This document shows, piece after piece, positions 2,396-53,054 of a DNA stretch of 64,000 nt. The notes under the pieces are model-generated. The model made no database searches. It saw nothing but the letters and a program-made list of their open reading frames with translations, and had not been told where the DNA came from. Position numbers and translations under genes: made by a program. The stretch spans positions 1 through 64,000 of the forward strand of contig NZ_FWFK01000003.1 of NCBI RefSeq assembly GCF_900172265.1, read 5' to 3'. Source of the DNA: Roseivivax jejudonensis (GTDB taxonomy: Bacteria; Pseudomonadota; Alphaproteobacteria; Rhodobacterales; Rhodobacteraceae). Position 1 is the stretch's first letter. Each line of letters begins with the position of its first letter.

Positions 2396-4681
2396 TCAGC
2401 CGCACTTGGAATGGCCGCAACTCGCGCAGGTCATGCAGCCCTCGACCATGCGCATCTCGAATTGACCGCAGGAGGGACAGGCCTTTCCGCGCGGCGCGTC
2501 GAGGCCGACGACACGGGCCTGCGGATCGGACTTGAGCCCCATGCCCTCGCTTTCGAGAAAGCCGGTTGCGACGAGATGCTGTTCGATCACGCCGCCGATC
2601 GCGGCAAGGATCGAGGGGATGTACTTTCCCTTCACCCACGCGCCGCCGCGCGGGTCGAACACCGCCTTGAGCTCCTCGACGACGAACGACACGTCGCCGC
2701 CGCGCCGGAACACCGCCGAGATCATCCGCGTGAGCGCCACCGTCCAGGCGAAATGCTCCATGTTCTTGGAGTTGATGAACACCTCGAAAGGCCGCCGGCG
2801 CCCGCCCACGACGATATCGTTGATCGTCAGGTAGATCGCGTGCTCGCTGTCGGGCCACTTGAGCTTGTAGGTGTTGCCCTCGAGCGCCTGCGGACGGTCG
2901 AGCGGCTCGGACATGTAGACCACCTCGGCGCCGTCCTCGGCCTCCTTCACGAGGACCGGCGTGTCGCCCTGCCCGGCCGTGTCGCCCTCCGACACGCTCA
3001 GCACCGAGCCCGTCACCTCGTTCGGCCGATAGGTGGTGCAGCCCTTGCAGCCGGTCTCGTAGGCCTGAAGGTAGACATCCTTGAACGCCTCGAACGAGAT
3101 GTCCTCCGGGCAGTTGATCGTCTTGGAGATCGAACTGTCGATCCAGCGTTGCGCCGCCGCCTGCATCCGCACGTGATCCTCGGGCGGCAGGGTCTGGGCG
3201 TTGACGAAGTACTCCGGGAACGGCGCGTCGCCCTGGGTTTCGCGCCACATCTGCACCGCGTAGTCGACGACCTCTTCCTCGGTGCGCGAGCCGTCGTTCT
3301 GCAACACCTTCCGTGTGTAGGCATAGGCGAAGACGGGTTCGATCCCCGACGACACATTGCCGGCATAAAGCGAGATCGTGCCCGTGGGCGCGATCGAGGT
3401 GAGAAGCGCGTTGCGGATCCCGTGGGCGCGCACGGCGTCGCGCACCTCGTCGTCCATCGCCTGCATCATCGGCGTGGCGAGGTAGGCCTCGGCATCGAAG
3501 AGCGGGAACGCGCCCTTTTCCTTGGCCAGCTCGGCGCTGGCAAGGTAGGAGGCGCGCGCGATGCGGCGCAGCCAGTCCTCGGTCTGGGCGGCGGCGGCCT
3601 CCGAGCCGTAGCGCAGGCCGAGCATGAGAAGCGCATCGGCGAGACCGGTGACACCGAGACCGATCCGGCGCTTGGCCGCCGCCTCGCGCGCCTGCGCCTC
3701 GAGCGGAAAGCGCGAGGCGTCGACGACGTTGTCCATCATCCGCACGGCCATGCGTACGAGATCCTCGAGCGCGGCATCGTCGATGCGCGCTTCGGGCGTG
3801 AACGGATCGGTGACCAGCCGTGCCAGGTTGACCGAACCGAGCAGGCACGCGCCGTAGGGGGGCAACGGCTGTTCGCCGCAGGGATTGGTCGCCGCGATCG
3901 TCTCGCAGTAACTCAGGTTGTTGGTCTCGTTGATGCGGTCGATGAAGATCACGCCCGGTTCGGCGTAGTCGTAGGTTGCGCGCATGATCCGGTTCCAGAG
4001 CTCGCGCGCCGGCAGCGTGTGGTAGACGCGACCGTCGAAGACGAGATCCCAGGACCCGTCGGCCTTGACCGCCTCCATGAAGGCGTCGGACACGAGAACC
4101 GAGAGGTTGAACATCCGCAGCCGCGCACTGTCGGCCTTGGCGCCGATGAACTCCTCGATGTCGGGATGATCGCAGCGCATCGTCGCCATCATCGCGCCGC
4201 GGCGGCTGCCGGCGGACATGATGGTGCGGCACATCGCGTCCCACACATCCATGAAGCTGAGCGGGCCCGACGCATCGGCGGCCACGCCGGTCACCGCCGC
4301 GCCGCGCGGGCGGATCGTCGAGAAATCGTAGCCGATGCCGCCGCCCTGCTGCATCGTCAGCGCGGCCTCCTTCAGCATGTCGAAGATCCCGGCCATCGTG
4401 TCGGGTATCGTGCCCATGACGAAGCAGTTGAAGAGCGTCACGGACCGCGCGGTGCCCGCCCCCGCGACGATGCGGCCGGCCGGCAGGAAGCGGAAATCCT
4501 CCAGCGCCGCGTAGAACCGAGGCTCCCATTCCTCGGGATCCGCCTCGGTCTCCGCGAGCGCGCGGGCGATCCGACGCCACGTCTCCTCGACGCTGCGGTC
4601 CACCGGGGTGCCGTCCGCCTCTTTCAGACGATACTTCATGTCCCAGATCTGTTCGGCGATGGGAGCGGCGAAACGGCTCAT
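2396..4681 (-). CDS. nrdJ: Adenosylcobalamin-dependent (class II) ribonucleoside-diphosphate reductase, short form
   Basis: A 761-residue class II ribonucleotide reductase that makes deoxynucleotides using a coenzyme-B12-derived thiyl radical. Visible signatures are the NPCGEQPLPPYGACLLGSVNL block with NPCGE at 266-270, the LFNCFVM segment around C86, the IAPTGTISLYAGNVSSGIEP loop and a C-terminal zinc-ribbon-like tail with CxxC at 735/738 and further Cys at 749, 752, 755 and 760 that can re-reduce the active site. The ATG at 4681 is preceded by AGGAG. A second, longer class II enzyme lies about 11 kb away, so this copy is redundant or specialised. It diverges from the DUF1489 gene across a short shared promoter region. 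Its 3' end faces the tniQ region. Confidence 0.95.
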   Translation of the reverse strand: MSRFAAPIAEQIWDMKYRLKEADGTPVDRSVEETWRRIARALAETEADPEEWEPRFYAALEDFRFLPAGRIVAGAGTARSVTLFNCFVMGTIPDTMAGIFDMLKEAALTMQQGGGIGYDFSTIRPRGAAVTGVAADASGPLSFMDVWDAMCRTIMSAGSRRGAMMATMRCDHPDIEEFIGAKADSARLRMFNLSVLVSDAFMEAVKADGSWDLVFDGRVYHTLPARELWNRIMRATYDYAEPGVIFIDRINETNNLSYCETIAATNPCGEQPLPPYGACLLGSVNLARLVTDPFTPEARIDDAALEDLVRMAVRMMDNVVDASRFPLEAQAREAAAKRRIGLGVTGLADALLMLGLRYGSEAAAAQTEDWLRRIARASYLASAELAKEKGAFPLFDAEAYLATPMMQAMDDEVRDAVRAHGIRNALLTSIAPTGTISLYAGNVSSGIEPVFAYAYTRKVLQNDGSRTEEEVVDYAVQMWRETQGDAPFPEYFVNAQTLPPEDHVRMQAAAQRWIDSSISKTINCPEDISFEAFKDVYLQAYETGCKGCTTYRPNEVTGSVLSVSEGDTAGQGDTPVLVKEAEDGAEVVYMSEPLDRPQALEGNTYKLKWPDSEHAIYLTINDIVVGGRRRPFEVFINSKNMEHFAWTVALTRMISAVFRRGGDVSFVVEELKAVFDPRGGAWVKGKYIPSILAAIGGVIEQHLVATGFLESEGMGLKSDPQARVVGLDAPRGKACPSCGQFEMRMVEGCMTCASCGHSKCG

Positions 4682-9619: not shown

Positions 9620-9745
9620 TGAAACTGCAGGGCTCTTAGGGTTCCGCTGCCGGTGTGTCCGGCAGGACCGGTCCGAGAAGAGCCACCCCGCCGGCAAATT
9701 CCGGCCGGGGCACACGGCGGGCCAAAATCCCGGGAGAGTACTGCG
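9620..9745 (+). ncRNA. Guanidine-I (ykkC) riboswitch
   Basis: Three blocks match the ykkC/guanidine-I aptamer in order and spacing: CTTAGGGTTCCG (9635-9646), GGACCGGTCCGAGA (9665-9678) and ACACGGCGGGCC-AAAA-TCCCGGGAGAG (about 9712-9738). The CCGGTGTGTCCGG stretch between the first two blocks forms a local hairpin. The aptamer binds free guanidinium and switches on downstream genes in known cases. Here it lies about 90 nt upstream of an ABC transporter and a guanidine-hydrolase-type ureohydrolase, which fits exactly. Boundaries are approximate, and the expression platform (9745-9834) was not resolved. Confidence 0.88.
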
Positions 9746-9834
9746 CAGGTCCGGCCCGCGCTCAGTGTTCTTGTTCCGCCGGCGGCCGGATCCGTTCGAC
9801 GAGGGATGGCGGGACGTCGACAACGGGGAAGACC

Positions 9835-10902
9835 ATGACAAAATCGATGATCACGTCCGCCGGTGTGGTGTCCTTGGCGGCTCTCGCGGCGCTCGGCGCG
9901 CCCGCAGCCGCGCAGGAAAAGACCGAGTTCCGGGTCGCCTGGTCGATCTACGTGGGATGGATGCCCTGGGGCTATCTCGAGGATTCGGGCATCATGGACA
10001 CGTGGGCCGAGAAATACGGCATCGACGTCGAGATCGTTCAGATCAACGACTACGTCGAATCGATCAACCAGTACACGTCCGGCGCCTTCGACGGAGTTTC
10101 GGCGACCAACATGGACACGCTGTCGATCCCGGCCGGCGGGGGCGTGGACACGACCGCGCTCATCATCGGCGACTATTCCGACGGCAACGACGCGGTCATC
10201 ACCAAGGGCGACACGACGCTCGAGGGGCTGGCCGGCACGCGGGTGAACCTCGTTGAACTCTCGGTGTCGCACTACCTGCTCGCTCGGGCGCTCGACAGCG
10301 TCGGTCTGGCCGAGCGCGACCTCGACGGTGTGGTGAACACCTCCGACGCCGACATGGTCGCGGCCTTCTCCAGCGAGGACGTGCAGACGGTGGTGACGTG
10401 GAACCCGCTCGTGTCGGCGATCCTCGACGGCAACCCGGACGCGCAGACGCTCTTCGACAGCTCGGCCATCCCGGGCGAGATCCTCGACCTGATGGTCGTG
10501 AACACCGAAACGCTCGAGGCGAACCCGGATTTCGGCCGGGCGCTCGTCGGCGCGTGGTACGAGGTGATGGGCCTGATGGCCGAGGGCGACGAGGCGGCAC
10601 TGACCGCGATGGCCGAAGCGGCGGGCACCGACCTCGAGGGCTACCGCGCGCAGCTCGAGGCGACCGCGATGTTCTACGACCCGGCCGAGGCCGTGGCACA
10701 GGCCGAAAGCGACTCGCTTCCCGAGACAATGACGACCGTGGCGGAGTTCCTGTTCGAGCAGGGCATCCTCGGCGTCGATGCGCCCTCGCCCGATTTCGTC
10801 GGCATCGAGTATCCCGACGGCACGATCACCGGCAGCGACCAGAACGTGCAATTCCGGTTCGACTCCTCGTTCATGCAAATGGCCGCCGACGGCGCGCTCT
10901 GA
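9835..10902 (+). CDS. Guanidine-operon ABC transporter, periplasmic substrate-binding protein
   Basis: A 355-residue binding protein of the NMT1/TauA-like type seen in urea-carboxylase/guanidine gene regions. The signal peptide ends near APAAAQ (residue 25). The mature part starts KTEFRVAWSIYVGWMPWGYLEDSGI and carries INDYVESINQYTSGAFDGVSATNMDTL, as in the family once named for urea carboxylase loci. The ATG at 9835 follows GGGGAAGACC; an upstream extension of the frame would run into the riboswitch. It is the first gene after the guanidine-I riboswitch, so guanidinium is the likely ligand. This is inference from regulation and family, not from binding-site residues. Confidence 0.88.
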   Translation: MTKSMITSAGVVSLAALAALGAPAAAQEKTEFRVAWSIYVGWMPWGYLEDSGIMDTWAEKYGIDVEIVQINDYVESINQYTSGAFDGVSATNMDTLSIPAGGGVDTTALIIGDYSDGNDAVITKGDTTLEGLAGTRVNLVELSVSHYLLARALDSVGLAERDLDGVVNTSDADMVAAFSSEDVQTVVTWNPLVSAILDGNPDAQTLFDSSAIPGEILDLMVVNTETLEANPDFGRALVGAWYEVMGLMAEGDEAALTAMAEAAGTDLEGYRAQLEATAMFYDPAEAVAQAESDSLPETMTTVAEFLFEQGILGVDAPSPDFVGIEYPDGTITGSDQNVQFRFDSSFMQMAADGAL

Positions 10903-10977
10903 GCCGTCGCGGCGCGCCCGTGGCCCGGCCGCGTCCCGGCCGGGCCCGTTCCTTCCGGACGAGACAGGCCGACACTC

Positions 10978-11790
10978 ATGCGCCTCATCAACAGACGTCC
11001 CGCGCGGCCCGCCGCGGTCCTTCTGACCGCCCTGCCCTTTGTCGCGGTGGCGATCGCCTACGCGATCGCGTCCGAGATCCGGCTCGCCGCCAACCCGCAG
11101 GACAAGCTCCTGCCGGCACCGGCGACGATCTGGGACACGGCGGTCCGGCTCTTTTCCGAACCCGACCGGCGCACCGGCGAGATCCTGTTGTGGCGCGATA
11201 CGGCCGCCAGTCTGCGCCGGCTGGCCGTCGGTGTCGGCGCCGGCGCACTGGTTTCGCTCCTGCTCGGCGTGCTGATCGGCCTGCTGCCCTATGTCCGGCG
11301 CACGCTGTCGGATTTCGTGGCGGTGATCTCGATGGTTCCGCCTTTGGCCCTGCTGCCGATCCTCTTCATCGTCTTCGGACTGGGCGAGATGTCGAAAATC
11401 GTGCTGATCGCCATCGGGATCACGCCGCTGATGATCCGCGACCTCGCGCAGCGCGTCCTCGACATCCCGCACGAAGAGATCGTCAAGGCGCAGACGCTCG
11501 GCGCCTCGACCCCGGTGATCGCGCTCCGCGTCGTGCTGCCGCAGATCCTGCCGCGCCTCATCTCCGCCGTGCGGCTTCAACTCGGGCCGGCCTGGCTTTT
11601 CCTCATCGCGGCCGAGGCCGTGGCAGCCGAAGTCGGGCTCGGTTACCGGATCTTCCTCGTCCGGCGCTACCTCGCGATGGACATCATCCTGACCTACGTC
11701 ATCTGGATCACGCTGTTGGCGTTCGTCATCGACTGGGCGCTGAAGCAGCTGTCGCGGCGCGCCTTCCCGTGGAAGGAGGCCGGGCTGTGA
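10978..11790 (+). CDS. Guanidine-operon ABC transporter, permease
   Basis: A 270-residue inner-membrane permease of the SsuC/TauC class. It has about six hydrophobic segments, including residues 16-36, 83-105 and 228-250, and the conserved cytoplasmic EAA loop (EIVKAQTLGASTPVIALRVVLPQILPRLI) that contacts the ATPase. ISMVPPLALLPILFIVFGLGE is typical of this permease family. It lies 75 bp after the binding-protein gene and overlaps the ATPase gene by 4 bp (GTGA), so the three are co-translated components of one importer. Confidence 0.9.
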   Translation: MRLINRRPARPAAVLLTALPFVAVAIAYAIASEIRLAANPQDKLLPAPATIWDTAVRLFSEPDRRTGEILLWRDTAASLRRLAVGVGAGALVSLLLGVLIGLLPYVRRTLSDFVAVISMVPPLALLPILFIVFGLGEMSKIVLIAIGITPLMIRDLAQRVLDIPHEEIVKAQTLGASTPVIALRVVLPQILPRLISAVRLQLGPAWLFLIAAEAVAAEVGLGYRIFLVRRYLAMDIILTYVIWITLLAFVIDWALKQLSRRAFPWKEAGL

Positions 11791-12572
11791 GCTTCGTGAC
11801 CGTCCGGGACGTCTGGCAAAGCTACGGCGCGCGATCGATCCTCGAGCGCGTAACCCTCGACGTGTCCGAGGGCGACTTCGTGTCGATCGTCGGCGCGTCC
11901 GGCTGCGGCAAGTCGACCTTCCTGCGGCTGCTTCTGGCCGACGAACGCCCGGTCCGCGGCGAGATCCGGGTCGACGGCGCCGAACCGGCGACAGAGCCCG
12001 GCCGATCCCGCGGCGTCGTCTTTCAGCGCTACTCGGTCTTTCCGCACATGACCGTGCGCGAGAACATCGTCGCGGCGGAAACCTTCTCGCGGCCGTTGGG
12101 CCGGGTCTGGGGCCGGGCGCGGCGGGAGGCCCGGGAACGGGCCGACGCGACGCTGGAGCGGGTGGGCCTCGCGCATGTGGCCGACGCCTACCCGGCGACG
12201 CTCTCGGGCGGGATGCAGCAGCGGCTGGCGATCGCGCAGGCGCTGACGGCGCGTCCGCGGATCCTGCTTCTCGACGAGCCCTTCGGCGCGCTCGATCCCG
12301 GCACGCGGCTGTCGATGCACGCGTTCCTGCAGGACCTGCGCGCCGAGACCGGCATGACCGTCTTCATGGTGACCCACGACCTCGAGGAAGGCTTCAAGCT
12401 CGGCGACCGCGTTCTCGTGTTCGACAAGCCCCGCTGGGACACGCAGGCGCCCGAGCGCTTCGGCGCCACGATCACCTACGATTTCGATGCGCGCGACGGC
12501 GGCGTGCCGTTCCAGCGCATCCTCGACCGGTATCCATCGCTCGCGCCGCGTCCGCCCGCGGCGACGGGCTGA
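11787..12572 (+). CDS. Guanidine-operon ABC transporter, ATP-binding protein
   Basis: A 261-residue ABC ATPase. It has Walker A GASGCGKST, the Q-loop VVFQRYSVFPHMTVREN, the signature LSGGMQQRLAIAQAL, Walker B ILLLDEPFGALD and the H-loop VTHDLEEGFKLGD. The GTG start at 11787 overlaps the permease stop codon (GTGA). The open frame extends much further upstream, but that part is a shadow of the preceding genes. The C-terminal tail RYPSLAPRP is typical of the group that accompanies NMT1-like binding proteins. It energises the importer. Confidence 0.92.
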   Translation: MSFVTVRDVWQSYGARSILERVTLDVSEGDFVSIVGASGCGKSTFLRLLLADERPVRGEIRVDGAEPATEPGRSRGVVFQRYSVFPHMTVRENIVAAETFSRPLGRVWGRARREARERADATLERVGLAHVADAYPATLSGGMQQRLAIAQALTARPRILLLDEPFGALDPGTRLSMHAFLQDLRAETGMTVFMVTHDLEEGFKLGDRVLVFDKPRWDTQAPERFGATITYDFDARDGGVPFQRILDRYPSLAPRPPAATG

Positions 12573-12680
12573 CCCCGACCCCCATGCGCGCCGCCGGACC
12601 CCGCGCATGGGCCGTGCCAAGGTCCGGAAAGCCGTGCCCCGCGCGACGCTGCCGCCGGGGCCAGTGAATGGGAGACAGCG

Positions 12681-13940
12681 ATGTTGTCCGAACCGCCCCG
12701 CGCCGGCCGCCGCGCACATCATCCGCGCGACCTCGCCGCGCGCCTCGCCGCCCGAGAGCGCCGGAACCACCACCCGGATCTGACCAGGCTCGCCGGCTGG
12801 AAAGCCATGCAGAAAGAGGGCGAGATCCCCGAAGGCCGGTGGGATCAGGAGCGCCGCTGGGCGCTGCGCATGGGTCTGACCGGCGCGGACACGATCGAGG
12901 ATCGCTCGATCCCCACCTTCGCGCGCGGCGAACTGCCCCACTACGCGGGCATCAACACCTTCCTCAAGGCGCCCTATGCCGAGGACGTGCTGGAGGTCGC
13001 CAACTACGATGCGACGGTGCTGGGCATCCCGTTCGACGGCGGCACGACATACCGTCCGGGCACGCGCTTCGGGCCGCAGGGCGTGCGCAAGATCTCGGCG
13101 CTCTACACGCCCTACAATTACGAGATCGGCGTCGATCTGCGCGAGCAGATGACGCTCTGCGATGCGGGCGACGTCTTCACCATCCCGGCCAACATCGAAA
13201 AGAGCTTCGATCAGATCAGCCGGGCGGTCAGTCACGTGTTCTCGTCGGGGTCCCTGCCGATCATGATCGGCGGCGATCACTCGATCGGCTTTCCCTGCGT
13301 GCGCGGCATCGCCGAGTGCACGTCCAGGAAGATCGGCATCGTGCATTTCGACCGTCACGCCGACATCCAGGAAAAGGACCTGGATGAACGCATGCACACA
13401 ACACCCTGGTTTCACTCCACGAACCTGCCCAACGTGCCGGCGCGCAACCTCGTGCAAGTGGGCATCGGCGGCTGGCAGGTCCCGCGCGAGGCGGTCAAGG
13501 TCGCGCGCGAGCGCGAAACCAACATCATCACCATGGGCGACATGGAGAAGATGGGCATCGACCGCACCATCGAGATGGCGCTCGAAATGGCGTGGGACGG
13601 CGCCGACATGGTCTACATGTCCTTCGACATCGACTCGATCGACTGCGGCTTCGTGCCCGGCACCGGCTGGCCGGAGCCCGGCGGCTTTCTCCCGCGCGAG
13701 GCGCTGGCGCTTGCCGCCGGCGTCGCGGCCGAGGGGATCTGCGGGCTCGAACTCGTCGAGGTCTCGCCGCCCTACGACCAGTCCGAGATCACCGCGCTCA
13801 TGGGCACGCGCGTCATCGTCGACGTGCTCGGATCGCTGGTGGCGCACGGCAAGCTCGGCACCCACAAGCCGCACATCGACAAGCCCGTGCAGATCCCGCA
13901 TGGCGAGTTCGAAGGCAAGAGGTGGTCCAATGCCACATGA
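12681..13940 (+). CDS. gdmH: Guanidine hydrolase-type ureohydrolase (arginase/agmatinase superfamily)
   Basis: A 419-residue ureohydrolase. Metal ligands are visible in GGDHS (H200), HFDRHADIQ (D224, H226, D228) and SFDIDSID (D316, D318). It is about 90 residues longer at the N terminus than agmatinases. The SALYTPYNYE segment and long N-terminal arm resemble cyanobacterial guanidine hydrolase GdmH, a nickel enzyme producing urea and ammonia from guanidinium. Position behind a guanidine-I riboswitch and its importer supports this over agmatinase or guanidinobutyrase activity. GGGAGAC precedes the ATG. The last 11 bp overlap the next gene. Activity is inferred. Confidence 0.85.
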   Translation: MLSEPPRAGRRAHHPRDLAARLAARERRNHHPDLTRLAGWKAMQKEGEIPEGRWDQERRWALRMGLTGADTIEDRSIPTFARGELPHYAGINTFLKAPYAEDVLEVANYDATVLGIPFDGGTTYRPGTRFGPQGVRKISALYTPYNYEIGVDLREQMTLCDAGDVFTIPANIEKSFDQISRAVSHVFSSGSLPIMIGGDHSIGFPCVRGIAECTSRKIGIVHFDRHADIQEKDLDERMHTTPWFHSTNLPNVPARNLVQVGIGGWQVPREAVKVARERETNIITMGDMEKMGIDRTIEMALEMAWDGADMVYMSFDIDSIDCGFVPGTGWPEPGGFLPREALALAAGVAAEGICGLELVEVSPPYDQSEITALMGTRVIVDVLGSLVAHGKLGTHKPHIDKPVQIPHGEFEGKRWSNAT

Positions 13941-14352
13941 CCACGCGGGCCCCGGCCACAACCACGCGCATGGCACGGACCACCTGCACAGCCACGTTGA
14001 CGGCGGCGACGCCGCCGAAGACCTGCAGGTCCTCGCGACGCAGTTCATCGACGGCTTCGTCGCGGCGCGGGACAAGACCAGCTACCTGCGGCTGGCCGGT
14101 GTCCCGTTCGAGCGCCCCGGGCGCGACGGTGCCGCCGCGCTCAAGCTCGTTGACGTGGACCTCCGGACCGAGTGGCAGGTCGGCACCGCCTCGCCGAGCT
14201 TCGGCTCGCGCGAGCTGAGCTACCTGCCCTTTCCGGGCGAGATGGTCCGCGAACGCACGAACATGGGCTTCGTCTACGTGTCGCTCGACGAGAAGGTGAC
14301 GGTCGATTTGCGCGATGTGCTCGCCGAGCGGCAGGCGCACGGCGCGATGTGA
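13930..14352 (+). CDS. His-rich small protein of the guanidine operon
   Basis: A 140-residue protein starting MPHDHAGPGHNHAHGTDHLHSH, with eight His in the first 22 residues; the rest is a compact acidic domain (residues about 28-135). The ATG overlaps the ureohydrolase gene by 11 bp, so translation is probably coupled. I do not recognise a named family. A His-rich N terminus next to a nickel-dependent hydrolase suggests nickel storage or delivery, a job done by HypA/HypB-like proteins in other guanidine operons. That is inference; a structural subunit is also possible. Confidence 0.75.
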   Translation: MPHDHAGPGHNHAHGTDHLHSHVDGGDAAEDLQVLATQFIDGFVAARDKTSYLRLAGVPFERPGRDGAAALKLVDVDLRTEWQVGTASPSFGSRELSYLPFPGEMVRERTNMGFVYVSLDEKVTVDLRDVLAERQAHGAM

Positions 14353-14382: not shown

Positions 14383-15207
14383 TCAGCCGCCGAAGACGAG
14401 GTCGCGCGCCATGTTCAGCGCGGTCGCGATCAGGAACAGCCCGAACAGCAGTCGCAGCCGCCGCTGCGGGATCGCGTGCGCGATCCGCACACCCACCCGC
14501 GCAAAGGTCATGGTCAGCGGCACGAGGCAGACGAGCGACAGAAGGTTCACGTACCCCAGCGAAAACGGGGGCAGATTCTCCTGCCCGAGCCCGGTCAGCG
14601 CGTAGGTGATCGCCCCCGGCACGCCGATGACGAATCCGATCGCGGCCGAGGTGCCGACCGCGCGCCGGATGTCGTAGCCGAGGAAGTTCAGCGTCGGCAC
14701 GCAGACGGTCCCGCCGCCGATCCCCATCATCGCCGAGATCGCGCCCGCGCCGAGGCCCGACGCCGCCCAGACCGGCGCCGAGAAACTGCGTGGCGTGTCG
14801 GACGGCGTGGCCGTCCGGAAGATCATGTCGAGCGCCACCGCCAGCGCAACGACGACGAACACGGCGATCAGCACCTTGCCCGATACCAGCCCGCCGATCA
14901 GCCCGCCGAGGATCGTCCCGACAAGGATCCACGGCCCCCAGCGCTTCAGCAATGCCACGTCGATCGCCCCCTTGCGCCAGTGCCCGTAGGACGACGAGGC
15001 GGAGGTGAAGATGATCGAGGCCAGCGACGTGCCCACCGCGACCTGCATCATCAGGCCCGGGTTCATGTCGGTCAGAGACAGCGCCCAGTACAGCGCCGGA
15101 ACGATGACGATGCCGCCGCCCACCCCGAGAAGCCCGGCCAGCGTGCCGCCGAAGATGCCGGCCGCCACCGCGATGCCCACGAACAGGGCGATCGTCCCGC
15201 CGTCCAT
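14383..15207 (-). CDS. TauE/SafE family sulfite/organosulfonate exporter-like permease
   Basis: A 274-residue integral membrane protein with about eight hydrophobic segments and the family's two pseudo-repeats, each with a glycine-rich loop: GTLAGLLGVGGGIVIVPAL near the start and GAISAMMGIGGGTVCVPTL in the second half. Family members move sulfite, sulfoacetate or other small anions across the inner membrane. The ATG at 15207 has GGGAGG eight bases upstream; the open frame upstream is not needed. It is convergent with the guanidine operon, and nothing nearby identifies the substrate. Confidence 0.85.
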   Translation of the reverse strand: MDGGTIALFVGIAVAAGIFGGTLAGLLGVGGGIVIVPALYWALSLTDMNPGLMMQVAVGTSLASIIFTSASSSYGHWRKGAIDVALLKRWGPWILVGTILGGLIGGLVSGKVLIAVFVVVALAVALDMIFRTATPSDTPRSFSAPVWAASGLGAGAISAMMGIGGGTVCVPTLNFLGYDIRRAVGTSAAIGFVIGVPGAITYALTGLGQENLPPFSLGYVNLLSLVCLVPLTMTFARVGVRIAHAIPQRRLRLLFGLFLIATALNMARDLVFGG

Positions 15208-15395
15208 CACGTGGCCTCCCGCTGGCGTCGCGTCTCGGTTTTCGCTGTCGGTGCAGTCACCTGCGGATCTCCCGGTTGTCTTCGGTGAACTGGCGCCCGC
15301 GCCCGCGGGGCCGCCGTCGCGCCAGCCGGTCGGACATTCCACACCCCCGCCGCGGCGTCAACGCGAGCGCCCCGGACCCACGTCCCCCACGCACG

Positions 15396-15523: not shown

Positions 15524-18500
15524 TCAGCTACATCCCGACGTGCCGCCGCAGGTGTTGCACTTCATGCAGGTGCCGTTGCGCACCAGCGTGTAGTTGCCGC
15601 ACTCGCCGCAGGGATCGCCCTCGTAGCCCTGCATCCGCGCCTTTGTGGCGGCGTCGACCTTGGGGGTCGCGCGGGTTGCCACGGCGACGGTGCTCTCGGC
15701 CTCGCCCACGACCGCCGACAGCGCCGAGGACGGATCCTGCGGGCTGGCGAAGCCGGTAACCTGGCCGCCACCCTGCAGCACCACCAGTTCCTGCGGCACG
15801 CGCTTGCGCAGATACCCCGAGGAGCTGATCTGCTTGAGCACTTCGAGCGACTTCGACGCGGCGCTCTCGGAGATTTCCTTGACGTTGGACACGCCCTCTT
15901 CCTCGCCGCGGCCGATGTCGTCGAAGGTCGCGCCCTCGGGCTTGACGTGCGCGAGGTCCGTCCGGTCGAGGTAGCTGACCGCCAGTTCGCGGAAGATGTA
16001 GTCGAGGATCGAGGTCGCGTTCTTGATGCTGTCGTTGCCCTGCACCATGCCCGCGGGCTCGAACTTGGTGAAGGTGAAGGCGTCGACGAACTCCTCCAGC
16101 GGCACGCCGTATTGCAGGCCGACGGACACCGCGATGGCGAAGTTGTTCATCATCGCCCGGAAGCCCGCGCCTTCCTTGTGCATGTCGATGAAGATCTCGC
16201 CCAGGCTGCCGTCGGCGTATTCGCCCGTGCGCAGGTAGACCTTGTGACCGCCGACGATCGCCTTCTGGGTATAGCCCTTGCGGCGCTCCGGCATCTTGGT
16301 GCGGGCGGTGGCGCGCTCGACCTCCTTGACGATGATCTTCTCGACCACCTTCTCGGCCAGCACGGCGGCCTTTTCCTGCATCGAGCCCGTCTCCAGCACC
16401 TCGGCCGCTTCGTCGTCATCCTCGACGAGCGCCGCGGCGAGCGGCTGGCTGAGCTTGGAGCCGTCGCGGTAGAGCGCGTTTGCCTTCACCCCGAGCGACC
16501 AAGACAGCTCGTAGGCCGCCTGGCAGTCCTCGATCGTGGCGTCGTTGGGCATGTTGATCGTCTTGGAGATCGCCCCCGAGATGAAGCTCTGTGCCGCCGC
16601 CATCATGTGAATGTGGCTCTCGACGGACAGGTAGCGCTTGCCCTTCTTGCCGCAGGGGTTGGCACAATCGAAGACCGACAGATGCTCGTCCTTCAGGTGC
16701 GGCGCCCCCTCGAGGGTCATCGTCCCGCAGACATGGTCGTTCGCCGCCTCGATGTCGGCCTTGGAATAGCCGAGATGCCGCAGCAGGTCGAAGGACGGAT
16801 CCACGAGCTTCTCGGCGGGGACGCCGAGAACGCCGGTGCAGAACTCCTCGCCCAGCGTCCACTGGTTGAAGACGAAGCGGATGTCGAAGGCCGAGGCCAG
16901 CGCGCTTTCCACCTTCTCGATCTGCGCCGGGCCGAAGCCGTGACCGATCAGCGAGGTGTGGTTGATGCCGGGCGCGTTCCCGAGGCTGCCGTGACCGACC
17001 GCGTAGCTGACGATCTCCTCGATCTGGTTCGACGCGTAGCCGAGCTTTTCGAGAGCCGCCGGAACGGATTGGTTGATGATCTTGAAGTAGCCGCCGCCGG
17101 CCAGTTTCTTGAACTTCACCAGCGCGAAGTCGGGCTCGATGCCGGTGGTGTCGCAATCCATCACCAGGCCGATCGTGCCCGTGGGCGCGATCACCGTGGC
17201 CTGCGCGTTGCGATAGCCGTGCGTCTCGCCCAGCCGCAGCGCCTCGTCCCACGAGGTGACCGCGAGATCGATCAGGCGGCTGTCCGGGCAGTTGGCGTGA
17301 TCGAGCGGCACCGGCGGAACCGCCAGCCCCTCGTACCCCTGCGTCGCGCCCTGCGCGGCGTTGCGATGGTTGCGGACGACCCGCAGCATGTGCTCGCGGT
17401 TGCGCTCGTAGCCGGCGAACGGGCCAAGCTCGCCCGCCACCTCGGCCGAGGTCGCGTAGGCCACGCCGGTCATGATCGCGGTCAGCGCACCGCAGAGCGC
17501 GCGGCCCTCGTCGGAATCGTAGCTGAGGCCCATGTTCATCAGCAGGCCGCCGATGTTGGCGTAGCCGAGACCCAGCGTCCGGAAGTCGTAGCTGAGCTGC
17601 GCGATTTCCTTCGAGGGGAACTGCGCCATCGTCACCGAGATCTCGAGCGTCAGCGTCCAGAGCCGGGTGGCATGCATGTACGCCTCGGCGTCGAACCGGC
17701 CGTCACGGTAGAACGTCAAAAGGTTCATCGAGGCGAGGTTGCACGCCGTATCGTCGAGGAACATGTACTCCGAGCAAGGGTTCGAGCCGCGGATCGCACC
17801 GTCCTCCGGGCAGGTGTGCCACGCGTTCACGGTGTCGTGGAACTGGATGCCGGGGTCGGCGCAGGCCCACGCGGCGTGGCCCACCTGCTCCCACAGGTCG
17901 CGCGCCTTGATGGTCTTGGCGACCTTTCCGTCGGTGCGGCGGATCAGCTCCCAGTCGGCGTCATCCTTGACCGCCTGCAGGAATGCATCGGTGACGCGGA
18001 TCGAGTTGTTGGAGTTCTGGCCCGACACCGACGCGTAGGCCTCGCTGTCCCAGTCGGTGTTGTAGGTCGGGAACTCGATCGAGGCGTAGCCCTGCCGCGC
18101 GTAGTCGAGCACGCGCTTCACGTAGGTCTCGGGGATCTGCACGCGCTTGGCGGCGCGGACCGCCTGCTTCAGCGCCTCGTTCTTGGCGGGATCGTGGGCG
18201 TCGGCCTCGGCACCGTCCCAGCCGCGGATGGCGGCGAAGATGCCGTTCAGCATCTTCTCGTGCATCTTGGAGCCGGCCACGATCGACGCGACCTTCTGCT
18301 CCTCGCGCACCTTCCAGTTGATGAATTCCTCGATGTCCGGGTGGTCGGCGTCGCAGATCACCATCTTGGCCGCGCGCCGCGTGGTGCCGCCGGACTTGAT
18401 CGCGCCCGCCGCGCGGTCGCCGATCTTGAGGAAGCCCATCAGGCCGGAGCTGCGGCCCCCGCCCGACAGGGCTTCCCCTTCGGCACGAAGGGAGGAGAAA

Positions 18501-19180
18501 TTCGTGCCGGTTCCGGATCCGTATTTGAACAGGCGCGCCTCGCGCACCCACAGATCCATGATGCCACCCTCGTTCACCAGGTCATCCCCGACCGACTGGA
18601 TGAAGCAGGCATGAGGCTGCGGATGCTCATAAGCCGACTTCGACTTGGTGAGTTTGCCGGTTTTGTGGTCGACGTAGAAATGGCCCTGGCCCGGACCGTC
18701 GATGCCGTAGGCCCAGTGCAGGCCGGTGTTGAACCATTGCGGGCTGTTCGGCGCGGCGGTCTGGGTCGCCAGCATGTGCCGCATCTCGTCGTAGTAGGCG
18801 CGCGCATCCTCTTCGGTCGAGAAGTAGCCGCCCTTCCAGCCCCAATAGGCCCAGGCGCCGGCGAGACGGTCGAAGACCTGCTTGGCCGAGGTCTCGCCGC
18901 GCGTCTCGGTGTCCTTTTCGGCGGGCACGGAGCGCCACAGGAACTCCGGCACGTCCTTTTCGGCCACGCGCTTCAGCGCGCCGGGCACGCCGGCCTTGCG
19001 GAAATATTTCTGCGCGATGACGTCGGACGCGACCTGGCTCCACGCCGCGGGGACCTCGACCTCGTCGAGGCGGAACACGATCGTCCCGTCGGGGTTTCGG
19101 ATCTCCGACGCGGTGGTGACGAAATCAATGCCCGCATATGCGTCTTCGCCGGCCTGCGTGTAATGTCTCTCGATCTTCAT
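15524..19180 (-). CDS. nrdJ: Vitamin B12-dependent (class II) ribonucleotide reductase, long form
   Basis: A 1218-residue adenosylcobalamin-dependent RNR. The catalytic barrel contains [24 protein letters not shown], with the active-site Cys, and [20 protein letters not shown]. The Cys-rich C terminus [23 protein letters not shown] carries the swinging thiols or zinc site. Length and N terminus ([20 protein letters not shown]) match the long alphaproteobacterial NrdJ, usually the main RNR in Rhodobacterales. It requires coenzyme B12 but no oxygen. It is monocistronic, with its own terminator. NrdR-box-like and DnaA-box-like sites lie upstream. It coexists with a 761-residue class II enzyme at 2396-4681. 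Confidence 0.97.
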
Positions 19181-39663: not shown

Positions 39664-40533
39664 ATGACCGCCAAGTACTACGCGCCGCACGGCGGCCACC
39701 CGGGCCAGGAGACGCTTCTCACGGATCGCGCCGTCTTTACCGAGGCCTACGCGGTGCTGCCACGCGGCACCATGCGCGACATCGTGACGAGCTTCCTGCC
39801 TGGCTGGGACGGCACACGCCTGTGGGTGCTCGCGCGGCCGATGACCGGCTTCGCCGAGACGTTCTCGCAGTACATCATGGAGGTCGCGCCGGGCGGCGGA
39901 TCGGAGCATCCCGAAACCGACCCGGAGGCCGAGGGCGTGCTCTTCGTCGTCGAGGGACGGGCGACGCTGACGGTGAACGGCGACATGCACGAGATGACGC
40001 CCGGCGGCTACGCCTACCTGCCACCGTCGGCGCACTGGACCCTGCGCAACGCGGGCGATGACGCCCTGCGGTTCCACTGGATCCGCAAGGCCTACGAGCC
40101 GGTGGACGGGCTCGACGAGCCCGATCCGCTGGTGCTCAACGAGAACGACATCGCGCCGACGCCGATGCCCGGCACCGACGGCAAATGGGCCACCACCCGC
40201 TTTGTCGATCCTGCGGATCTGCGCCACGACATGCACGTGACTGTGGTCACGTTCGAGCCCGGCGCCGTCATCCCGTTTCTCGAGACCCACGTCATGGAGC
40301 ACGGGCTCTACGTGCTCGAGGGCAAGGCCGCCTATCGGCTCAACACCGACTGGGTCGAGGTCGAGGCCGGTGACTTCATGTGGCTGCGCGCCTTCTGCCC
40401 GCAGGCCTGCTATGCCGGCGGGCCGGGGCGCTTCCGCTACCTGCTCTACAAGGACGTGAACCGGCACATGGCGCTGCGCCCGGCCGCCGCCGCGCGCCCG
40501 GCCGCGCGTCGCCTCAGGTCCGCGGCGGAGTGA
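39664..40533 (+). CDS. (S)-ureidoglycine aminohydrolase
   Basis: A 289-residue bicupin that releases ammonia from (S)-ureidoglycine to give (S)-ureidoglycolate, a late step of urate catabolism. The first cupin has GGGSEHPETDPEAEGVLFVVEGRATLTV and the second has PGAVIPFLETHVMEHGLYVLEGKAAYRL, which holds the manganese ligands (Glu, His, His, Gln region; CPQACYAGG follows). Length and layout agree with AllE/UGlyAH. It is convergent with bhcR (20-bp overlap). The product is cleaved by ureidoglycolate lyase, encoded at 48401-48886, to glyoxylate and urea. Confidence 0.92.
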   Translation: MTAKYYAPHGGHPGQETLLTDRAVFTEAYAVLPRGTMRDIVTSFLPGWDGTRLWVLARPMTGFAETFSQYIMEVAPGGGSEHPETDPEAEGVLFVVEGRATLTVNGDMHEMTPGGYAYLPPSAHWTLRNAGDDALRFHWIRKAYEPVDGLDEPDPLVLNENDIAPTPMPGTDGKWATTRFVDPADLRHDMHVTVVTFEPGAVIPFLETHVMEHGLYVLEGKAAYRLNTDWVEVEAGDFMWLRAFCPQACYAGGPGRFRYLLYKDVNRHMALRPAAAARPAARRLRSAAE

Positions 40534-41461: not shown

Positions 41462-41528
41462 ATTTTTAAAAAACTCTGCCGACGCGCGGCGACGCGCTAT
41501 CGTGCCGCCATCGACGGAGGAGACACCG

Positions 41529-42719
41529 ATGAGCTTTCAGAACCCCGTTTTCATTCCCGGCCCCACGAACATCCCCGAACGCCTGCGCAAGGCCTGCGAC
41601 ATGCCGACGATCGATCACCGGTCGCCGCTCTTCGGCCAGATTCTCCATCCGGCGCGCGAGGGCGTGCGCCGGGTCTTCAAGAGCGAAAGCGCGGAGGTCT
41701 TCATCTTCCCGTCCACCGGCACCGGCGGCTGGGAAACCGCGCTGACCAACACGCTGTCGCCGGGCGACCGCGTGCTCGCGGCGCGCAACGGCATGTTCTC
41801 GCACCGCTGGATCGACATGTGCCAGCGCCACGGGCTCGACGTCACGGTGGTCGACACGCCCTGGGGCCACGGGATCCCGGCCGAGCGCTACGAGGAGATC
41901 CTGACCGCCGACAGCGCCCACGAGATCAAGGCCGTCCTCGCCACGCACAACGAGACCGCGACCGGCGTGACATCCGACATCGCCGCGATCCGCCGCGCGC
42001 TCGACGCCGCCGCGCATCCCGCCATGCTGTTCGTGGACGGGGTCAGTTCCATCGGCTCGATGGACTTCCGGTTCGACGCGTGGGGCGTCGACGTCGCCGT
42101 GACCGGCTCGCAGAAGGGCTTCATGCTGCCCGCCGGCCTCGCCATCGTCGGCTTCAGCGACACGGCGATGCAGGCGACGAAAACGGCCACCCTGCCCCGC
42201 ACCTTCTTTGACGTGCACGACATGGCGGCGGGCTATGCCAACAGCGCGTATCCCTACACGCCGGCCGTCGGCCTCATGAACGGGCTGAACGACGCCTGCG
42301 GGATGCTTCTGTCCGAGGGGCTCGACGCCGTCTTCGCCCGCCACCACCGCATCGCCGAGGGCGTGCGCGCCGCCGTCGGCGCGTGGGGCCTCGAGCTCTG
42401 CGCGGCGACACCGGCGGTCTATTCCGACACCGTCAGTGCGATCCGGACACCAGAAGGCTTCGACGCCACGCGCATCGTCACCCACGCCGCCGACACCTAC
42501 GGCGTCGCCTTCGGCGTCGGTCTCGGTGACGTGGCCGGCAAGGTGTTCCGCATCGGTCACCTGGGCAGCCTGACGGACGTCATGACCCTTTCGGGTCTCG
42601 CCACGGCCGAGATGTGCATGGCCGATCTCGGCCTCGACATCCGGCTCGGCTCCGGCGTCGCGGCGGCGCAGGACTATTACCGCGCGCATCCCGCGCTCGC
42701 ACGCAAGGACGCCGCCTGA
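41529..42719 (+). CDS. bhcA: Aspartate-glyoxylate aminotransferase of the beta-hydroxyaspartate cycle
   Basis: A 396-residue class V aminotransferase that passes the amino group of aspartate to glyoxylate, giving oxaloacetate and glycine. It opens MSFQNPVFIPGPTNIPERL, almost as in Paracoccus BhcA. The Schiff-base lysine is K196 in VTGSQKGFMLP, with FVDGVSSIGSMDF before it and STGTGGWE binding the cofactor phosphate. The ATG at 41529 follows GGAGGAGACACCG. It is the first gene of the bhcABCD operon. On its own it could be called serine-glyoxylate aminotransferase; context makes BhcA secure. Confidence 0.95.
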   Translation: MSFQNPVFIPGPTNIPERLRKACDMPTIDHRSPLFGQILHPAREGVRRVFKSESAEVFIFPSTGTGGWETALTNTLSPGDRVLAARNGMFSHRWIDMCQRHGLDVTVVDTPWGHGIPAERYEEILTADSAHEIKAVLATHNETATGVTSDIAAIRRALDAAAHPAMLFVDGVSSIGSMDFRFDAWGVDVAVTGSQKGFMLPAGLAIVGFSDTAMQATKTATLPRTFFDVHDMAAGYANSAYPYTPAVGLMNGLNDACGMLLSEGLDAVFARHHRIAEGVRAAVGAWGLELCAATPAVYSDTVSAIRTPEGFDATRIVTHAADTYGVAFGVGLGDVAGKVFRIGHLGSLTDVMTLSGLATAEMCMADLGLDIRLGSGVAAAQDYYRAHPALARKDAA

Positions 42720-46177: not shown

Positions 46178-46795
46178 CTAGCTCAGCGGGATGGCTGAGC
46201 CGTCCTTCGCGCTTTGGTACGTTCCTGAGAACTCACCGTACAATTCGTACAGACGCGCGGCCCGATCCGACAACGCGGCGCGCTCCGCGTCGTCCAGGCG
46301 CGCGATCTCGTCCTTGATGCTCCAGCTCGTCCAGTATGCGTTGCTGCGGTTGTATTCCCCGTCCGTCAGCCCGAAGACCTCGCTCAGGATCTTCAGGTCA
46401 TGCGGGATCGAAAAGCTGTCGCGGCTGTCCTGGTGGCTGAAGAAATAGAAGAAGTTGTCGAACCCCGCCCACGTGATCGCCGACAGGCACAGCGAGCATG
46501 GCTCATGCGTCGACAGAAAAATCAGGTCGCGCGTGTCCGGCCGTTCACCCTGCTCGTAGAACCGCTTGAGACAGTGCATTTCTCCATGCCACAAGGGATT
46601 TTCCGTCTCGTTGTTCGTCTCGGCGAGGACCAGCGACAAGTCCGATTTCCGCAGCAGCGCGGCGCCGAAGACCTTGTTGCCGGCGGCCACGCCCTCGGCC
46701 GTCATCGGCGCGATGTCGTGCTCCATCGTGTCGAGCAGGCGCGACAGCAGCGCGGCGCGATCTGCGGGAAGGTCGAACGGAGTGCGGGTCGTCAT
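46178..46795 (-). CDS. Zinc-dependent nucleoside/nucleobase deaminase
   Basis: A 205-residue cytidine/deoxycytidylate-deaminase-fold protein with the zinc motifs WHGEMH (His and catalytic Glu) and PCSLC (two Cys). The C-terminal part (residues 120-205, with YFFSHQDSRDSFSIPHDL and GLTDGEYNRSNAYWTSWSI) is longer than in small tRNA or guanine deaminases. The ATG at 46795 is preceded by GAGGACATCAGA; an upstream extension is unlikely. It is the last gene of a purine-degradation operon, which makes a purine-type substrate such as guanine or an aminopurine likely. The substrate is not assignable from sequence. Confidence 0.8.
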   Translation of the reverse strand: MTTRTPFDLPADRAALLSRLLDTMEHDIAPMTAEGVAAGNKVFGAALLRKSDLSLVLAETNNETENPLWHGEMHCLKRFYEQGERPDTRDLIFLSTHEPCSLCLSAITWAGFDNFFYFFSHQDSRDSFSIPHDLKILSEVFGLTDGEYNRSNAYWTSWSIKDEIARLDDAERAALSDRAARLYELYGEFSGTYQSAKDGSAIPLS

Positions 46796-46924
46796 TCTGA
46801 TGTCCTCGTGACGGTATGATGCGAAGGGCGCCGCGCTGGCCTTCCTCGCGCGAACGATAAGAAAGCCAGCGCAACACATTGAAAAGACGGGCGGCGTCCG
46901 GCCAAACGCCGCCCGGAGCGAGCC

Positions 46925-50442: not shown

Positions 50443-50796
50443 ATGACCGGATACCTGACGACCCACGTGCTCGACACCGCGCGCGGATTGCCCGCCGCAG
50501 GCCTCGAGATCGAGCTCTATCGGATCGAGGGCGACAATCGCACCAAGCTCAAGACGGTGCGGACGAACGCGGACGGGCGCACCGACGCGCAGATCCTGCC
50601 CGAGGCCGAATTCGCCACGGGCGTGTACGAGCTCGTCTTTCACGCCGGCGCGTATCTCGACGCGACCGGCACGCCGGCGGAGGATCCGCGTTTTCTCGAC
50701 GTGATCCCGATCCGGTTCGGCATGTCGCAGGCGGCGCACTACCACGTGCCGCTGCTGCTGTCGCCGTTCGGCTACTCCACATACCGGGGCAGCTGA
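50443..50796 (+). CDS. uraH: 5-Hydroxyisourate hydrolase
   Basis: A 117-residue transthyretin-related protein that hydrolyses 5-hydroxyisourate to OHCU. It has the N-terminal [16 protein letters not shown] motif with the catalytic His, the conserved Arg in NADGRT, and ends with the diagnostic YRGS tetrapeptide. It diverges from the puuE-uraD operon; the 147-bp gap between them (50296-50442) holds both promoters. GGAGACGCTGCC precedes the ATG. It is convergent with the LysR-type gene, one base apart. Confidence 0.96.
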
Positions 50797-51721: not shown

Positions 51722-51821
51722 TATTCGGCAATTTTTGATGCTGCTTGGCGCTCATCGCAAATACCAGAACAAACAGGGATGGAATAGGGTCGGCCCGAGT
51801 TCTGATCTTTGGAGGCCTGCC

Positions 51822-53054
51822 ATGTACGATCTGGCGATCATCTGGGACTGGATCGCGTTCTCGGTCCGCTGGCTGCACGTCATCACCGCGATGGCGTGGA
51901 TCGGCGCATCTTTCTACTTCATCGCGCTCGACCTGATGCTGAAGCCCAACCCCGATCTGCCGGACGGCGCCCACGGCGAGGAGTGGGAGGTTCACGGCGG
52001 CGGCTTCTACCACACCGTGAAGTACACGGTCGCGCCGGCGCGCATGCCCGAGCACCTGACCTGGCACAAGTGGCAGAGCTACACGACATGGCTGTCCGGG
52101 GCGGCGCTGCTGATGATCCTCTACTGGGTCAGCGGCGAGCTTTACCTGCTCGATCCCACGAAGGCCGATCTGACGCTCTGGCAGGGCATCGTCATCTCCG
52201 GCGGCTCGCTGACAATCGGCTGGCTCGCCTACGACCAACTGTGCAAGTCGAAACTGGGCGAGACGCCGACCGTCCTCATGCTCGTCCTTTTCGGCATTCT
52301 GGTCGTGATGTCATGGGGCTATCACCAGATCTTCACGGGCCGTGCGGCGCTTTTGCATCTCGGCGCCTTCACCGCCACGATCATGACGGCGAACGTGTTC
52401 TTCCAGATCATGCCGAACCAGCGCATCGTCGTGGAGGACCTGAAGGCCGGGCGCACGCCCGACGCAAAATACGGCAAGATCGCCAAGCTGCGCTCGACGC
52501 ACAACAACTACCTGACGCTGCCGGTCGTGTTCCTGATGCTGTCGAACCACTACCCGCTCGCCTTCGCGACCGAGTACGCGTGGATCATCGCGGCCCTGAT
52601 CTTCCTGACGGGCGTGACCATCCGGCATTACTTCAACACCATGCACCGCACCGGAACGGGGCCGCACTGGACCTGGGCGGTCACCGTCCTGATCATGGTG
52701 GTGATCGCGTGGCTCTCGACCGTGCCGGGGGGCGAAAGCTACGAGCAGGCCGAAGCCCGCAGCATGACCGCCCACGAGACGCGGTTCGCCTCGGCCGACG
52801 GCTTCGACGACGCGTACTATGCCGTGGTCGGAAACTGCTCCATGTGCCACGCGCGCGAGCCCTCGTGGGACGGCATCCGCTGGGCGCCGCGCAACGTGGT
52901 TCTCGAAACCGAGGCGGATGTCGCGCGGCACGCCGAGCAGATCTATCTGCAGGCGGGCCGCAGCCACGCCATGCCGCCGCCGAACGCGATCCAGATGGAC
53001 CCCGAGGCGCGCGCCGACATCGTCGCATGGTTCCGAAGCGCGACCGCGAACTAG
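51822..53054 (+). CDS. puuD: Membrane urate hydroxylase/oxidase with C-terminal cytochrome c
   Basis: A 410-residue protein: about eight transmembrane segments of the PuuD (DUF989) type over residues 10-310, starting YDLAIIWDWIAFSVRWLHVITAMAWIG, then a periplasmic cytochrome c domain with haem motif CSMCH at 339-343 and an axial Met in HAMPPPNAI. It converts urate to 5-hydroxyisourate and passes electrons to the respiratory chain rather than forming hydrogen peroxide as soluble uricase does. The ATG at 51822 follows TTTGGAGGCCTGCC. It is divergent from the LysR-type gene. Confidence 0.94.
   Translation: MYDLAIIWDWIAFSVRWLHVITAMAWIGASFYFIALDLMLKPNPDLPDGAHGEEWEVHGGGFYHTVKYTVAPARMPEHLTWHKWQSYTTWLSGAALLMILYWVSGELYLLDPTKADLTLWQGIVISGGSLTIGWLAYDQLCKSKLGETPTVLMLVLFGILVVMSWGYHQIFTGRAALLHLGAFTATIMTANVFFQIMPNQRIVVEDLKAGRTPDAKYGKIAKLRSTHNNYLTLPVVFLMLSNHYPLAFATEYAWIIAALIFLTGVTIRHYFNTMHRTGTGPHWTWAVTVLIMVVIAWLSTVPGGESYEQAEARSMTAHETRFASADGFDDAYYAVVGNCSMCHAREPSWDGIRWAPRNVVLETEADVARHAEQIYLQAGRSHAMPPPNAIQMDPEARADIVAWFRSATAN

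Follow-up and report, generated by a model that had tools for sequence, protein, structure and literature searches.

A riboswitch-headed guanidine operon of Roseivivax jejudonensis ending in a candidate nickel-delivery protein for guanidine hydrolase

Introduction

What does a short histidine-rich protein contribute at the end of an operon for guanidine use? The question is raised by a locus of Roseivivax jejudonensis (Rhodobacteraceae), in which a guanidine-I (ykkC) riboswitch aptamer is followed on the + strand by genes for a periplasmic binding protein, a permease and an ATPase of an ATP-binding cassette (ABC) importer, a ureohydrolase and, last, a histidine-rich protein of 140 residues, for which we use the name HisR in this report only. 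The window analyzed here is the first 64,000 nucleotides of contig NZ_FWFK01000003.1 (assembly GCF_900172265.1). An earlier note on this window, made from the letters alone, had read the locus as a guanidine uptake and hydrolysis operon and had listed HisR without explaining it; HisR is the part that is new and unusual. The presence of a riboswitch-headed guanidine operon is confirmed, and guanidine scavenging is almost certainly its role.

The explanation that we judge probable as a whole is that of a guanidine-scavenging operon with HisR as its nickel supplier. Guanidine binding to the aptamer would switch on the ABC importer, a nickel-dependent guanidine hydrolase (GdmH), and HisR; GdmH would split the imported guanidine into urea and ammonium, and urease would then split the urea, giving three ammonia in all. 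The histidine-rich tail of HisR would collect Ni2+, while its free N-terminus (Pro-His-Asp after methionine removal, or Met-His-x in distant relatives) would hold one Ni2+ in the manner of the Met-His-Glu start of HypA, and its conserved core would dock on GdmH itself or a shared GTPase, for instance UreG. In this scheme HisR would fill the place that the HypA/HypB-like pair GhaA/GhaB occupies in cyanobacteria. That HisR binds nickel, passes it on, and docks on such a partner is predicted from sequence, and delivery of nickel to GdmH by HisR is, taken by itself, reasonably likely.

Results and Discussion

A guanidine operon behind a riboswitch

A covariance-model search of the whole window returned a full-length match to RF00442 (82.2 bits, with a gathering score of 63 and an E-value of 4.1e-13; Table 1), which bears out the guanidine-I riboswitch proposed in the earlier note, and the aptamer presumably responds to guanidine. 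The same note had described a three-gene ABC importer, a ureohydrolase, and a His-rich protein with short spacing or overlaps, and the gaps between consecutive genes are indeed two short spacers and two overlaps (75, -4, 108, and -11 bases). Among 80 loci fetched by similarity to HisR, all five operon products were matched by tblastn in 76, and the aptamer was found in 77 with a model built from six such hits, so the five-gene arrangement is not due to chance. Two of the three aptamer misses are clipped by contig ends and the third is locus L018, described below. No conserved extra gene follows HisR, the commonest gene cluster within 4 kb occurring in only 9 of the 80 loci; the next gene in the window, on the opposite strand at 14383-15342, encodes a TauE/SafE-type protein.

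Table 1. Features of the guanidine operon, with positions in the 64,000-nucleotide window.
Feature	Position	Strand	Basis
Guanidine-I (ykkC) riboswitch aptamer	9625-9738	+	RF00442, 82.2 bits, model positions 1-107 of 107
Leader, aptamer to first start codon	9739-9834	+	Conserved; two possible interleaved helices; no U-run terminator
Periplasmic substrate-binding protein, predicted guanidine importer	9835-10902	+	NCBIfam TIGR03427 ABC_peri_uca
ABC permease	10978-11790	+	Pfam PF00528, 68 bits
ABC ATPase, GTG start, 4-base overlap with permease	11787-12572	+	Pfam PF00005, 120 bits
GdmH-type guanidine hydrolase, 419 residues	12681-13940	+	PDB matches, marker residues, metal ligands
HisR, 140 residues, candidate nickel-delivery protein for GdmH	13930-14352	+	No family match; downstream of GdmH

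The ureohydrolase scores 545 bits against the solved chains 7esr/7oi1 from Synechocystis and 525 bits against 9fek from Nitrospira inopinata (organisms as given in PMC11410670), the next solved family reaching 173 bits; all of these GdmH chains were deposited under agmatinase-type names. Identity to 9fek amounts to 217 of 357 aligned columns (61%). In the Nitrospira enzyme, Thr105, His222, Trp313, and Glu344 are described as residues that may matter for guanidine catalysis, with Thr97 and Trp305 as equivalents in Synechocystis (PMC11410670), and alignment with 9fek places T123, H239, W330, and E360 at these marker positions here. Six candidate metal ligands were recognized by motif (H200, D224, H226, D228, D316, and D318). 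Among the 80 fetched loci (L007-L086), 79 encode GdmH, the contig of the 80th beginning at HisR; 78 of these 79 proteins keep the four marker residues and the six ligands, and the remaining one keeps the ligands and the two marker residues that are readable. Identity as an agmatinase was rejected on the scores to GdmH as compared with other families, on NCBIfam agmatinase scores below the cut-offs (168.7 with a cut-off of 174.3, and 202.5 with one of 302), and on the kept Thr/His/Trp/Glu set, so that the guanidine-hydrolase reading of the earlier note held up in the comparison with characterized enzymes. Its description of the protein as N-terminally extended stands in so far as an upstream part is present, the Pfam arginase domain starting at residue 110, but the extension is not peculiar to this protein because the solved GdmH chains share it, aligning from their residues 17 and 26. 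The enzyme is accordingly listed in Table 1 as GdmH-type, and nickel-dependent hydrolysis of guanidine is its predicted activity. It is very improbable that the enzyme acts mainly on another small guanidino compound, such as methylguanidine or agmatine, with guanidine as inducer only: three plasmid relatives that were checked (H1, H8, and H10) are annotated as agmatinase family proteins, whereas the window's enzyme and those of all 78 fetched loci in which the four residues are readable keep the Thr/His/Trp/Glu set, and the scores and missed cut-offs given above also speak against such a substrate.

With 496 bits, the binding protein scores above the cut-off (334) of NCBIfam TIGR03427, a model named after a putative urea transporter. 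Transporters of this kind accompany so-called urea carboxylases, many of which are now known to prefer guanidine (PMC12186494), and we infer that this preference bears on the urea name of the model as well. The permease and the ATPase are ordinary ABC parts according to Pfam and NCBIfam, the nearest NCBIfam models of the permease (TauC, SaoP, and SsuC) all remaining under their cut-offs. Guanidine is the putative cargo of the importer.

With a gene for urease alpha at another place in the genome, three ammonia could be gained from guanidine, and the use of guanidine as a nitrogen source, as suggested in the earlier note, is a complete pathway on paper. Urease alpha was also found in all 15 other genomes with GdmH and HisR that were tested (16 of 16 in total). 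In two genomes it is on the same contig as the guanidine operon, about 2 kb away in G132 (L125, contig 17) and about 8 kb away in G363 (L122, contig 51), and this proximity links the two steps of the pathway. The window itself carries a set of ureide/urate genes between 39664 and 53054, namely a cupin protein (39664-40533), a class-V aminotransferase (41502-42719), a deaminase (46178-46879), an HIUase/transthyretin protein (50443-50796), and urate oxidase (51735-53054), and these urate-degradation genes are in keeping with nitrogen scavenging.

HisR accompanies the hydrolase

The distribution of HisR was examined by a pattern scan of 84,980 genomes, one per species, which reaches close relatives only. 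The scan gave 159 HisR-encoding stretches, the best 80 of which were fetched; their titles name Rhodobacterales-type genera or Rhodobacteraceae/Alphaproteobacteria, and from these names we take the genera to belong to the Rhodobacterales. The 159 stretches suggest, without proving it, widespread use of guanidine as a nitrogen source in this Rhodobacterales-type group, and HisR could serve as a marker for guanidine use.

Of 94 loci found through HisR, 93 have GdmH upstream in the same orientation, and the contig of the remaining one starts at HisR. Searches that start from GdmH avoid the selection built into such HisR-first searches. A sample of 385 alphaproteobacterial genomes contained 14 GdmH matches at E <= 1e-60, and at an identity of at least 70% a HisR homologue was the next gene downstream in 10 of 10 genomes besides the window's own. 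Three matches had only 55-58% identity, and HisR was found nowhere in those genomes (completeness 68, 96, and 93%); two of these three GdmH-like genes are truncated at the edge of a contig, and in the third the Trp of guanidinases is missing. Outside the 80 fetched loci, Thr stands in place of this Trp in the GdmH-like proteins of G115 (L131) and Embleya (L138), which have no HisR adjoining. Among 398 Pseudomonadota genomes, GdmH was present in seven and a HisR match in eight; the seven coincide, with HisR downstream of GdmH each time and the largest gap, in G773, being about 0.35 kb. Over these samples, HisR follows gdmH in 16 of 16 alphaproteobacterial genomes that have GdmH at 70% identity or more. 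In a plasmid collection, GdmH occurred in 11 records (E <= 1e-80) and HisR in seven (E <= 0.01), these seven being the alphaproteobacterial ones. The patterns in the plasmid records and genome samples tie HisR to alphaproteobacterial GdmH and not to GdmH everywhere.

A natural control separates the hydrolase from the rest of the operon. Of 14 genomes of the same genus or family, six have the riboswitch, and HisR was present in five of these but in none of the other eight. In G030 (L133), the riboswitch and the three importer genes are followed by genes for a UAAP1-type protein and a carboxylase that passes TIGR02712 (1736 bits, cut-off 1304) and by the first part of an allophanate hydrolase gene; there is no GdmH at this locus, and neither protein nor profile searches found HisR in this genome, which is 85% complete. 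HisR therefore goes with the hydrolase and not with the importer or the switch, and a role as a part of the importer was rejected because the importer is kept without HisR in G030. The distance correlation with GdmH was also higher for HisR (r = 0.90) than for the other three operon products (0.74-0.87), as computed on 88 of the 94 loci with shared ancestry not removed.

Several operons look decayed or rearranged. In L081 the importer and hydrolase matches are in several pieces and the aptamer is weak (33.6 bits), L061 has no match to the binding protein, and about 2.2 kb lie between the ATPase gene and gdmH in L086. L018 has neither an importer nor an aptamer match and resembles a GdmH-HisR pair standing alone; the region upstream seems to be rearranged, so this locus was given no weight. 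The eighth HisR match of the 398-genome sample, in a genome without GdmH (G629, contig 1, about 405274-405375; L149), covers 30 residues of the HisR C-terminus and is possibly a relic of a lost operon.

Sequence and predicted structure of HisR

HisR has no match to a Pfam or NCBIfam family at E <= 0.1. Membership in a known family was rejected after searches of Pfam, NCBIfam, PHROGs, and PDB sequences gave results at chance level, the best PDB match being initiation factor 5A with an E-value of 0.037. An alignment of 79 rows (the window's HisR and 78 of 96 sequences; a further set comprises 77 of those 79) likewise gave only weak, chance-level family matches. PF01155 (HypA) was not among the families listed for these rows at E <= 1, and UreE and other catalogued nickel chaperones had no profile match to HisR and only weak ones among its relatives. 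No published description of HisR was found in the literature searched.

The protein combines a histidine-rich tail with a conserved core. The window's HisR has eight His within its first 26 residues, and in 80 sequences the tail is 31-62 residues long and contains 6-28 His (median 16) and zero Cys. The structural model has a mean predicted local distance difference test score (pLDDT) of 81 and a predicted template modeling score (pTM) of 0.66, with mostly high confidence in the core from about residue 27 (mean pLDDT of the core blocks 71-98, lowest at 81-110). The modeled elements are helices at 27-45, 49-55, and 127-137 and strands at 61-64, 67-84, 106-117, and 122-126. Nine core residues (F39, D48, L53, L73, G85, P89, Y98, P102, and Y116) are invariant in the 79 rows.

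The start of HisR is of particular interest for metal binding. The rows begin with MPHD in 72 of 79 cases, the start being our choice in that MPHD was taken wherever it lay in the open frame; six of the other seven may start with MH-x (MHDD once, MHGG twice, MHDAD from a GTG codon, and two via a second possible start), and three further distant members from the 398-genome sample can do so as well. A methionine before proline is normally removed, which would leave Pro-His-Asp at the N-terminus of HisR. HypA, which invariably starts with MHE, binds nickel through its free N-terminal amine and His2, and the site is lost when the His is shifted by one position (PMC5557546, PMC7055735). The HisR start would be in register with the MHE of HypA, which is suggestive and not proof, the tails being His-rich anyway.

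The tight linkage of GdmH and HisR and the overlap of their genes in the window would also suit a HisR that is a subunit or allosteric partner of GdmH, comparable to the beta subunit of metformin hydrolase, with the tail being secondary. HisR residues 85-104, which are highly conserved yet modeled less confidently, as interaction surfaces sometimes are, could be read in the same way. A stoichiometric subunit, however, would have no need of a His-rich tail, and the available text on the characterized Synechocystis and Nitrospira guanidine hydrolases names no such partner; we regard this role as improbable.

Nickel supply in genomes with GdmH

GdmH needs nickel, and the Synechocystis enzyme needs GhaA/GhaB, according to the available accounts (PMC11271267, PMC12186494, PMC10094980). 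The operon contains no HypA/HypB-type nickel chaperone genes (GhaA, GhaB), which define gdmH operons of the cyanobacterial type. The genome of the window, which is 99.98% complete, has no match to HypA (PF01155), and its HypB-type (TIGR00073) matches are all below the cut-off; the best of them is probably UreG because it lies about 2 kb from urease alpha. Across the 16 genomes with GdmH and HisR, the window's included, HypA is absent from 11 and HypB over the cut-off from 12. Most of these organisms would need another route for loading GdmH, if any is needed. HisR follows gdmH behind the same riboswitch and looks metal-binding, which makes the nickel question testable.

A different use of the putative metal-binding features is that HisR serves as a nickel store or buffer, for protection or as a pool, with UreE, UreG, or simple equilibrium loading GdmH. 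His-rich tails can be dispensable stores, as described for Klebsiella UreE (PMC7055735), and the presence of urease in 16 of 16 genomes with GdmH and HisR puts UreG-type loading at hand. A pure store, on the other hand, would be expected beside urease alone, whereas the 398-genome sample contains no full HisR without GdmH, though urease is common without HisR, and it is the core of HisR that is conserved and not the tail alone. We consider a store unlikely, if a little less so than a subunit.

Several observations weigh against nickel delivery by HisR. The family searches gave HisR no sequence similarity to any known metallochaperone, and the resemblance of its N-terminus to that of HypA depends in part on the choice of starts described above; HisR of L124 starts with MADI. 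Near-tailless members exist (L126 with one His, and L122 and L123 with short tails), so the N-terminus and the core may matter more than the tail. HypA was matched in 5 of the 16 genomes with GdmH and HisR, one match being partial, and HypA is uncommon generally (8 of 61 related genomes), its absence thus not being special to GdmH carriers. Four actinobacterial plasmid records with GdmH have no HisR (these records only were searched), and no HypA/HypB was found within 7 kb of actinobacterial GdmH by tblastn with one HypA and two HypB queries (taken from L095, L101, and L102), which is a weak test. In comammox Nitrospira, according to the available text, a nickel-loading protein is not evident (PMC11410670), and GdmH may therefore do without one in some cases. 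Co-expression of chaperones with metformin hydrolase is described as having no effect in cell extracts, yet the knockout failed to grow on metformin (PMC11271267). Urease, finally, is not a specific partner, all 12 genomes of one comparison having urease and seven of these lacking HisR.

The leader between the aptamer and the first gene

The leader is well conserved in sequence among relatives and may form two helices in the order of an H-type pseudoknot, helix I pairing 9748-9759 with 9782-9792 and helix II pairing 9773-9780 with 9808-9815. Helix II ends nine bases before a Shine-Dalgarno-like GGGGAAG at 9825-9831. Of 78 leaders, 16 are without the motif used as anchor, and pairing was assessed in the other 62. 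Native partners were better than swapped ones for helix I (-16.8 vs -13.3 kcal/mol) and for helix II (-14.8 vs -14.5 kcal/mol), and 0 of 5000 permutations were as good in either case, a result that is inflated by kinship. Against shuffled partners, with kinship kept in, helix I had a mean z of -2.24 and 36 of 62 leaders passed at the 5% level; helix I of the window itself was no better than shuffles (z = -0.65). RNAalifold, which cannot draw pseudoknots, was run on 42 of 70 listed leaders picked by eye for a common type; it predicted helix II, one pair of which is changed on both sides, and a local hairpin of the 5' arm of helix I (columns 6-9 with 23-26) instead of helix I.

Three modes of control were considered and set aside. 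An intrinsic terminator was rejected as the expression platform since the window's leader has no terminator-like site or hairpin and a five-T run occurs in just 5 of 76 leaders. An off state in which GUUCCGCC of the leader pairs with GGCGGG of the aptamer is possible, but the aptamer does not follow the change in helix II seen in L025. Masking of the Shine-Dalgarno sequence by the same leader segment, as suggested by the fold of the window's leader, was no better for native than for swapped partners (-8.6 vs -8.9 kcal/mol), and 4599 of 5000 permutations were as good (57 of 78 leaders, kinship kept in). We read the control as translational or Rho-dependent. Other Rfam elements gave only weak matches in the leader, far under their gathering scores, and the leader represents an expression platform covered by no Rfam family.

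A bolder form of the explanation, which we put forward tentatively and think rather doubtful, is that HisR founds a new alphaproteobacterial family dedicated to nickel insertion into GdmH. HisR would then do alone the work of HypA and HypB (GhaA/GhaB), a HypA-like N-terminal site would have evolved independently of HypA, one branch losing the methionine of MPHD and another using an MH-x start, and the switch would act via a conserved, possibly pseudoknotted, terminator-free leader.

Other observations

Two ribonucleotide reductase-type genes are located on the - strand of the window, at 2396-4681 and 15524-19180. The product of the former passes the B12-dependent NrdJ_Z model, and that of the latter (1218 residues) resembles the long B12-dependent form by eye. 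The left end of the window carries an integrase-core (rve) fragment of an insertion sequence at 24-344. On a plasmid of Rubrobacter indicoceani (L135), a guanidinase-type gene is located beside a sodium:solute symporter and a urease cluster, and no HisR or related ABC importer was found in this stretch; the symporter is a possible further route of guanidine import.

Comparison with known systems

An operon with a guanidine riboswitch, an importer, and a guanidine hydrolase is of a known kind, described in 2021-2023 (PMC8390497, PMC10119275) and reviewed in 2025 (PMC12186494). According to Wang et al. 2021 (PMC8390497), genes of the Sll1077 type that stand under guanidine riboswitches often have hypA, hypB, and a transporter of the SsuA/NrtD type as neighbors; a study of picocyanobacteria describes the same gene set (PMC10119275), and the review draws it (PMC12186494). 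The earlier note had called the combination of importer and hydrolase a less studied arrangement, which does not hold in view of these publications on Synechocystis and picocyanobacteria.

The putative N-terminal site and the tail of HisR recall known nickel proteins, namely the N-terminal Met-His-Glu nickel site of HypA and the His-rich tail of Klebsiella UreE (PMC7055735, PMC5557546). Unlike these, HisR has no sequence match to either, and its tails are without Cys. Guanidine carboxylase operons, known from enterobacteria (PMC12186494) and represented here by G030, share the guanidine riboswitch and the ABC importer but carry genes for a carboxylase, UAAP/deiminase-type proteins, and allophanate hydrolase, the G030 locus having neither GdmH nor HisR. 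The locus of comammox Nitrospira shares the guanidine-I riboswitch and GdmH, whereas it has an amino acid-polyamine-organocation (APC) permease in place of the ABC importer; nickel chaperones are reported as absent from the region, and the available text reports no dedicated nickel-loading protein (PMC11410670). The picocyanobacterial cluster (speB2, hypA, hypB, and a TauABC-like importer) has the same pathway and riboswitch class but includes hypA/hypB homologues, and the available description mentions no HisR-like gene (PMC10119275). The closest known counterpart, sll1077-1082 of Synechocystis PCC 6803, shares the guanidine-I riboswitch, an SsuA/NrtD-type ABC importer, and a nickel-dependent guanidine hydrolase (PMC8390497, PMC10094980, PMC12186494). 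It differs in having two HypA/HypB-type nickel-delivery proteins, whereas the operon of R. jejudonensis has none and ends instead in HisR, an unrelated His-rich protein.

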